Shown piece after piece: positions 20,741 to 22,140 of a stretch of 64,000 nt of DNA. Position 1 is the first letter of the stretch. Every line of letters starts with the position of its first letter. Origin of the DNA: Alloprevotella tannerae ATCC 51259 (GTDB taxonomy: Bacteria; Bacteroidota; Bacteroidia; Bacteroidales; Bacteroidaceae); assembly GCF_000159995.1 (NCBI RefSeq), contig NZ_GG700643.1, forward strand, positions 861,195 to 925,194. The letters run 5' to 3'. Below the pieces are notes generated by a model. The model was not told the DNA's origin. It searched no databases and worked only from the letters and a program-made list of their open reading frames with translations. Both the position numbers and the translations under genes were made by a program.

Positions 20741-21003
20741 TTCCTTGCTGCCATCAAAGACTATTGGCATTTATTTTGCAAGAAAGAGAAATAATGCGTA
20801 CCTGTTGTAACAGAAAGTTAGTTGCGGATTTTTCGCACTTCAACGATAACAGTACTCGTTTGGCATACCGTAAGATCTGCCGGCGAGTCTATTTTACAAA
20901 CTATGCCCAATAAGGAATTGCGCCTGATACTGTTTGATGCCATTAGGACAGCCTTACGGACAAAAATGATTTATCATTTCTGCATTTGATACAGCTCTTG
21001 ATG
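20741..21003. other. gap after the left module, no supported gene
   Basis: The gap from the excisionase-like gene to the AbiF gene is about 400 nt. The first 260 nt hold only a 39-codon frame (20794-20913, KLVADFSHFNDNSTRLAYRK) with no recognised domain or clear start signal. The rest holds the terminator, promoter and structured leader listed separately. Confidence 0.4.
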
Positions 21004-21041: not shown

Positions 21042-21071
21042 TTGCGTATTCAAAAAAAACAGTTAACTTTG
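21042..21071 (+). promoter_or_regulatory. promoter of the abiF RNA/AbiF unit
   Basis: TAACTTTG at 21064-21071 is a full match to the TAnnTTTG box. An upstream TTGC at 21042 is 18 nt away, slightly short. Predicted transcription start is near 21077, directly before the structured leader. Confidence 0.6.
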
Positions 21072-21076
21072 CAGTC

Positions 21077-21125
21077 AATATGACCTCCCACGCTTCCCAT
21101 TGGAACAGCGCACCCGGGGAGGTCT
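21077..21125 (+). ncRNA. candidate abiF RNA (structured leader)
   Basis: Just downstream of the promoter the sequence can fold tightly. Outer stem: GACCTCCC (21082-21089) with GGGAGGTC (21117-21124), perfect over 8 bp. Inner hairpin: CGC..TTCC-CATT-GGAA..GCG (21091-21110). Both stems lie within 43 nt, ending 19 nt before the AbiF start codon. A conserved structured RNA, the abiF RNA motif, has been described next to abiF genes (known from memory, not checked against the covariance model). The position and compact GC stems suit it. It may act as an RNA antitoxin or regulator of the HEPN protein. Confidence 0.55.
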
Positions 21126-21143
21126 TCGAGTTTATATACGGTT

Positions 21144-22097
21144 ATGAGGTACGAAAAGAAGCCGATAGACACGTCTGAGCAGGTAAAAAAACTGCACGAT
21201 CGAGGACTTGATATTGGAAATGAAACACTTGCTGCCCAATATCTTCATAACATAAGTTATTATAGGTTACGAGCATATACATACCCTTTCCAAAATAATG
21301 AGGAAGGCGCTAATCACGAGTTTCTGAGAAAGGACATTTCTTTTCAAGATGTGATAGACCTTTATTGTTTTGACAGGCGTTTACGCTCTTTAATCTTCAA
21401 TGCCATTGAAAAAATCGAGGTGGCATTAAGGACACGAATTGCCTTAACTTATTCCGTTGATGAGAATGATGCCTTTTGGTTTCTCAATCATAAGCTATAC
21501 TTTCAGCACGATAAGTTTATCGCATTGACACGCAACGAGGTCATAGACGGTAAGCCTGTTGTGGGTGATTTGATGAAAGAGGTCAAGCGAAGTAATGAGG
21601 AATTTATAGCCCATTATTATCAAAAATACAGCGAGCCTGCTTTTCCGCCGGCATGGATGACCTTAGAGGTTGTTTCTATGGGAACATTGAGTAAGTTGTT
21701 TTTTGCCTTGGACAAGAATAATCCTTCAAGTAAAACCATATGCAGGGATTTGGGGCTTTACAATGTCGATATTCTGAAGAATTGGATGCACGGTTTATCG
21801 TCCTTGCGCAACACCTGTGCCCATCACAGTCGTGTATGGAATCGTCGCTTTACGATAGGATTGAAGTTTCCTTATAGGACGAGCCATCCTTTCCTGTCAA
21901 AGCAAGAGGTTGCAACGATAAGGGACAATAAATTGTTTGCCTACCTATCTGTAATTTTGTATTTACAACAAATAATCAGTCCTGACAGCTCATTTAGAAA
22001 GAAATTGCTCAACCTGTTGGATGAATCTCCTAAATTGGTAGTCTTGAAAGATATGGGCTTTCCTGAAAATTGGAGAGAATACACTTTGTGGAAATAA
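21144..22097 (+). CDS. abiF: AbiF/AbiD (Abi_2) family HEPN protein, phage defence
   Basis: A 317-residue protein of the Abi_2 family, involved in abortive phage infection. The N-terminal signature SYYRLRAYTYPFQ is at about 35-47, and DLYCFDRRLRSLIFNAIEKIEVALRTRIA follows at about 75-105. The key site is LRNTCAHHSRVWN: Arg222 and His227 make the R-x4-H motif of HEPN ribonucleases, the superfamily also used by Cas13. The protein most likely cuts RNA when triggered. It has its own promoter and a compact structured leader, and is closed by a bidirectional terminator, so it is a self-contained defence unit within the conjugative element. Start ATG is 19 nt after the leader stem. Confidence 0.88.
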   Translation: MRYEKKPIDTSEQVKKLHDRGLDIGNETLAAQYLHNISYYRLRAYTYPFQNNEEGANHEFLRKDISFQDVIDLYCFDRRLRSLIFNAIEKIEVALRTRIALTYSVDENDAFWFLNHKLYFQHDKFIALTRNEVIDGKPVVGDLMKEVKRSNEEFIAHYYQKYSEPAFPPAWMTLEVVSMGTLSKLFFALDKNNPSSKTICRDLGLYNVDILKNWMHGLSSLRNTCAHHSRVWNRRFTIGLKFPYRTSHPFLSKQEVATIRDNKLFAYLSVILYLQQIISPDSSFRKKLLNLLDESPKLVVLKDMGFPENWREYTLWK

Positions 22098-22103
22098 TAT
22101 AAT

Positions 22104-22140
22104 ATGATGTGGGTGTGTCATTTTGACACACCCACATCAT
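22104..22140. terminator. bidirectional terminator between AbiF and methylase-helicase
   Basis: A perfect 17-bp stem (22104-22120 with 22124-22140, TGACACACCCACATCAT on the right) and a 3-nt loop, located between two convergent genes only 46 nt apart. It can end both transcripts. Confidence 0.88.

Follow-up and report, generated by a model that had tools for sequence, protein, structure and literature searches.

A self-contained AbiF/abiF-RNA unit, probably a type III-like toxin-antitoxin system, on a CTnDOT-like conjugative element of Alloprevotella tannerae

An intact abiF unit and its leader

The DNA analysed here is a 64,000-nucleotide stretch from Alloprevotella tannerae ATCC 51259 (hereafter, the window). 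On its plus strand lies an intact abiF gene (21144..22097, with the ATG at 21144) for an Abi_2/AbiD-F HEPN protein of 317 aa. This protein matches the Abi_2 family (PF07751) with 191.6 bits (cut-off 25.6, E 2e-56) and AbiD in PADLOC (E 8.9e-70), and its residues 222-227 (R222-N-T-C-A-H227, RNTCAH) have the form of the HEPN catalytic motif, Rx4-6H. Across 49 homologues, N223, H227 and H228 never vary, and conservation of R222 is 90% or more. Searches of the PDB gave a single significant match by sequence, 8vz6 (E 1.2e-43), and also a single one by fold, 8vz6_A, with TM values of 0.84/0.90 for an AF2 model of pLDDT 93.8. The 317-aa chain bears a single Abi_2 match and a single RNTCAH motif and does not qualify as a Cas13, which combines two HEPN domains per chain with a CRISPR array; the sequence inspected near the gene showed no repeat array. 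Homologue searches returned 42 loci in species-level genomes, and 124 of 301 genomes of the same family carry an AbiF homologue.

Upstream of abiF, we read from the sequence a plus-strand promoter of the Bacteroidota type (21042..21071), with a TTG at 21042-21044 that stands 19 nt 5' of the -7 box TAACTTTG (TAnnTTTG, 21064-21071). It is followed by a 43-nt RNA on the same strand (21082..21124), which consists of an 8-bp outer stem (21082-21089/21117-21124) and an inner hairpin (21091-21096/21103-21110), and whose letters are GACCTCCC A CGCTTC CCATTG GA AC AGCG CACCCG GGGAGGTC. Between the RNA and the start codon there is a T-rich spacer of 19 nt (21125..21143, plus strand), possibly a weak attenuator or a processing region. 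From the -7 box to the end of the gene, the unit spans 21064-22097.

Most of this anatomy had been proposed in an earlier note on this DNA, which described an Abi_2 gene with a RNTCAH HEPN motif, a consensus -7 promoter, a two-stem RNA with an 8-bp outer stem and an inner hairpin, and a distance of 19 nt between the end of the RNA and the abiF ATG (21124 to 21144). All four descriptions hold, and the minimum free energy fold of the leader (-20.1 kcal/mol) gives the stem that the note had drawn. The same note placed a bidirectional terminator after the gene: the hairpin scan does find a terminator-like hairpin of 17 bp at 22104..22140, but the word bidirectional is only partly supported, because a T tract was found on the minus strand alone.

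A conjugative carrier and a relic neighbour

The unit had also been placed inside a conjugative element, and gene identification bears this out: between 43176 and 57548 there are genes for a coupling protein, a relaxase, MobC, the ATPase TraG, TraJ and TraM, from which we recognise a CTnDOT-like conjugative element. Units 92-99% identical to that of the window occur in Bacteroides, Hoylesella and Prevotella species, a distribution that fits horizontal spread of the unit.

Just upstream, at 20799-20989, we noticed the remains of a second, dead AbiF unit that the earlier note did not mention. It comprises a relic leader RNA of another type (type B, see below; 20844..20897, plus strand, 67.0 bits with our model R2) and an abiF stub of 28 codons (20903..20989, plus strand), both of them sharing 81% identity with a tandem unit that is intact in the sequence L009, whose two tandem AbiF copies are about 33% identical to each other. 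By blastn the stub aligns to copy 1 of L009 in two pieces, a deletion having fused the start of abiF to an internal stretch of the gene. The relic promoter also looks damaged, since its -7 box reads TACCTGTTG (20799-20807) where L009 has TACCTTTG.

The leader as a divergent abiF RNA

Fold energy alone does not set the leader apart (z -1.8, with 14 of 200 shuffles folding equally well); it is conservation that raises it above chance. Comparing the DNA upstream of the AbiF homologues that we fetched, we found the same RNA before nearly all of them, in a common layout in which a TAnnTTTG promoter is followed by an RNA with a variable outer stem and a constant core. The outer stems differ in letters while keeping their pairing, as in GACCTCCC/GGGGAGGTC, TTCCGCC/GGGCGGAA, CTCGCC/GGGCGAG and ACCAGCC/GGGCTGGT, and a T run stands at the end of many leaders. 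In an alignment of 33 distinct homologous leaders, 94.6% of the cells are paired, compared with 39-47% in controls with slid partners, and double changes affect seven pairs in 36 cells, including six of the eight pairs of the outer stem. None of 500 shuffles reached the covariation score of these leaders, and RNAalifold independently predicted both stems, minus the outermost pair.

Covariation of the stems and a match to the Rfam abiF model had both been anticipated, and both were found, the second at the predicted place though below the cut-off. At the gathering cut-off Rfam gives no abiF RNA match in the window, and a scan of 1251 bases returned matches at chance level only; in a scan limited to 78 bases, RF03085 (the Rfam abiF family) matches 21084-21123 with all pairs standard and 24.4 bits (E 0.0072), under the threshold of 37. 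This model exceeds its cut-off in 54 of 151 genomes of the family, with no match in the A. tannerae genome. When leaders of the window type and of the RF03085 type are aligned jointly, 95.8% of the cells are paired and eight of ten pairs show double changes, the inner-stem pair 16-35 appearing as A-U, C-G and U-A. Since pairing is kept through double changes across both types, we regard the window RNA as a divergent abiF RNA, type A, with a longer inner hairpin. It is a probable antitoxin; we call it a divergent relative and not a curated member of RF03085 because its score lies under the cut-off. The RNA of the Rfam type sits at the same position in the close relatives of PbAbiF, the AbiF of structure 8vz6.

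A third type, B, lies upstream of a distinct AbiF clade, and several of its sites are matched weakly by our model R1. Its leaders (L118-L132; L009 864-917) read AACAGAACCCG..GCATCCCGTAGATCTGC..CGGGT and have an 11-bp stem with a variable hairpin ahead of it on the 5' side. We do not claim this 5' hairpin as stable, its fold energies (z -0.7 to -2.8) being too weak. In the window and in L009, the type B leader has no Rfam match. The abiF RNA has therefore at least three sequence types, two of which, that of the window unit and type B, are missed by the Rfam cut-off in the window.

On a tree of 98 labelled AbiF proteins, the RNA type changes nine times, as against about 40 times with shuffled labels, and type B forms one clade. 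As judged from this tree, RNA type and AbiF appear to be inherited as a pair; the tree speaks for heritability only and not for detailed co-evolution, because near-copies make any label cluster. Outside the bacteria, the archaeon Methanimicrococcus blatticola has a 41% identical AbiF with an abiF-type leader RNA (L031 4933-4982), a unit possibly acquired from Bacteroidota.

Toxins without RNA are rare, RNAs without toxin are common

Our model R3, whose training set included some of the leaders that it finds, detects the RNA at 65 of 72 AbiF loci. At two more (L057 and L071) the RNA is present by R1 or by eye, at L047 the abiF gene is split and the presence of the RNA cannot be judged, and at four (L037, L061, L066 and L072) no RNA was recognised. 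The last three of these belong to an AbiF clade in which the promoter lies near the start codon and no leader RNA can be recognised; this clade may use another antitoxin.

Looking from the side of the RNA, we surveyed 201 genomes and located 67 sites of type A. An intact AbiF follows 24 of them and a remnant 16; after another 26 we recognise nothing, and one lies at a contig end, so that the toxin is broken or missing at 42 of the 67 (about 60% of these RNAs in Prevotellaceae). The -7 box is kept at 23 of the 24 intact sites, 13 of the 16 with a remnant and 17 of the 26 toxin-free ones, while it occurs in 1.9% of random 32-nt windows. In Prevotella bivia (L011 3509-5909), for instance, an insertion bearing a transposase breaks abiF after about codon 52 and leaves promoter and RNA intact. 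With the RNA at 65 of 72 loci and no intact toxin at 42 of 67 RNAs, a toxin without RNA is rare and an RNA without toxin is common, an asymmetry that is in part a detection effect, because badly decayed RNAs escape finding, and in which a 950-nt gene is also a bigger target than a 43-nt RNA. A toxin that is readily lost and an RNA that lingers are what one would expect if they are poison and antidote.

We found no alternative effector after the AbiF-free RNAs; by eye, the downstream ORFs that we read look unrelated to each other and unlike AbiF. Some toxin-free copies (L164, L173, L174, L171 and L172, L175) share flanking DNA between different genomes, and in some pairs the shared flanks end at the RNA or just after it, as if marking the edge of a moved segment.

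Standalone abiF RNAs in phages

We also scanned viral contigs with exact patterns for the abiF RNA types and obtained 20 RNAs of type A, two of type B and 40 of the Rfam type (L209-L270), while the reversed Rfam-type pattern gave no match; some of the viral contigs may be prophages or misassigned. Of the 60 RNAs of types A and Rfam, an intact AbiF follows five, a remnant two and a contig end eight, and nothing follows the other 45. The outer stems of the standalone copies are variable and yet paired: the contiguous stem has a mean of 5.88 bp for the Rfam type, compared with 3.35 for shuffled partners, and of 7.25 bp for type A, compared with 4.21, neither value being reached in 2000 shuffles for each type. 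The standalone copies often stand inside tRNA arrays: for 22 of the 49 distinct ones, a tRNA or tmRNA call is no more than 300 nt away, and on contigs holding any such gene, this proximity applies to 81% of the copies and to 26% of random positions.

Two named isolates carry an abiF RNA above the Rfam cut-off: Acinetobacter phage Acj61 (L271 2501-2541, 58.0 bits) and Roseobacter phage CRP-143 (L272 2501-2543, 50.8 bits), in the latter between the scaffolding and capsid genes. No AbiF was found within the 5 kb examined in either phage. The abiF RNA travels toxin-free in bacteria and in phages, and it is in these toxin-free copies that we see the potential for novelty. A cyanophage abiF sRNA has been reported earlier, without a counter-defence reading (PMC9964418), and RNA anti-CRISPRs (Racrs) are a precedent for the strategy (PMC10651486): like them, the phage abiF RNAs are isolated copies, carried by phages, of an RNA that belongs to a defence system of the host, with the difference that their putative target is AbiF and not Cas proteins. 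We lean slightly towards the view that the standalone RNAs of phages serve as decoy antitoxins against host AbiF, and that bacterial orphans, among them the type B relic next to the intact unit, could act likewise against incoming elements that bear AbiF. Since the RNA travels without its toxin, a possible use by phages of a copied antitoxin RNA to disarm AbiF is directly testable.

Proposed function

The locus combines the homology and the intact catalytic motif of an AbiF with a conserved, covarying RNA, and its anatomy is that of a type III toxin-antitoxin system, with the RNA encoded 5' of the toxin under one promoter. Given the match to 8vz6, the covarying RNA and the link to phage phiC2 (see below), we interpret it, with a probability of roughly 0.85, as a self-contained, type III-like AbiF/abiF-RNA toxin-antitoxin unit carried as cargo by the CTnDOT-like element. 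For binding of the RNA by AbiF, neutralisation, toxicity and trigger at this locus, we infer what has been found in tested relatives. The single promoter would yield the short two-stem RNA, and transcripts reading through beyond it would serve as mRNA for the toxin. Whether still attached as the leader of that transcript or released as a short RNA, the two-stem RNA would bind AbiF directly and keep the HEPN dimer inactive as a ribonucleoprotein, as for AbiFr/PbAbiF and RCd22/AbiFCd. A shortage of RNA, whether from loss of the element or from phage shut-off of host transcription, would free AbiF, which would then cleave RNA and stop growth, and this stop could serve maintenance of the element, abortive infection or both.

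The earlier note had interpreted the locus as an RNA-controlled HEPN toxin with a link to Cas13. It was right, and the idea is no longer new, because the same has been published for close relatives (8vz6, PMC12373285, PMC12165695, PMC12737573). The window unit is a further member of a kind of system published in 2024-2025, and its RNA subtype is one missed by the Rfam cut-off. It also places the AbiF/RNA module, from which Cas13 has recently been proposed to descend, on a conjugative element that is widely transferred.

The RNA might instead be purely cis-regulatory, either an attenuator or a leader that, with AbiF bound to it, represses the mRNA of which it is part; it would then not act on the protein as a separate antitoxin. 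Its place within the 5' leader, 19 nt ahead of the start codon, the T run that closes many leaders and the fact that RCd22 also reduces abiF expression in cis in C. difficile would all agree with such a role. However, gene-free copies of the RNA persist in bacteria together with their promoter, solitary ones occur in phages, the C. difficile RNA works in trans and PbAbiF was solved in complex with its ncRNA, all of which makes a role in cis only improbable. We consider it slightly less probable still that the unit is a decaying relic, its toxin inactive or unexpressed and its RNA not yet lost: related units decay frequently and a dead one adjoins, but here the ORF, the promoter and the stems are all intact, and copies 92-99% identical have the same leader in several genera. 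That the RNA is a guide directing AbiF in the manner of Cas13 is an idea suggested by the grouping of Cas13 HEPN domains with AbiD/F (PMC12165695), which we dropped as very improbable because there is no spacer-like region, the leader being a covarying stem plus a constant core with no variable stretch 3' of it, and each chain having a single Abi_2 match.

Comparison with known systems

The closest system of known structure is PbAbiF-AbiFr from a Prevotellaceae bacterium, solved with its ncRNA as PDB 8vz6 (Zilberzwige-Tal et al. 2025, as described in PMC12373285 and PMC12737573). Both units belong to the HEPN AbiF homodimer family, have a small RNA just 5' of the gene and come from the same bacterial order. 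They differ in that the proteins are only about 37% identical, and in that the RNA of the relatives of PbAbiF is of the Rfam type, its inner stem being short, whereas the window RNA differs in its outer stem and has the longer inner hairpin. With RF03085 itself, the window RNA shares the position beside abiF on the same strand, the two-stem plan and the conserved core; the longer inner hairpin and the score of 24.4 bits, under the cut-off of 37, set it apart.

The AbiFCd-RCd22 pair of the C. difficile phage phi027, with homologues in phiC2 and phiCD2301, has been tested: AbiFCd is toxic, and RCd22, which contains two abiF motifs, neutralises it by binding to it directly, both in cis and in trans (PMC12373285). 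The AbiF of phiC2 is 99.88% identical to AbiFCd and 29% identical to that of the window, and our model R3 matches both motifs upstream of the phiC2 gene, in agreement with the two of RCd22. Like the window unit, whose RNA is matched by the same model, this pair has one promoter, a structured RNA and then abiF; unlike it, it has two motifs and a terminator before the gene, where the window unit shows a single motif and lacks a clear terminator. Two tandem motifs also precede the AbiF of the cyanobacterial plasmid pAQ3 (L207 363-415 and 537-587), as in RCd22.

With the type III toxin-antitoxin systems of the ToxIN and AbiQ kind, finally, the window unit has in common a small RNA antitoxin encoded 5' of an RNase gene, both putative here, under one promoter, while its toxin is a HEPN protein and not of the ToxN fold, and its RNA is a single unit in place of tandem repeats.
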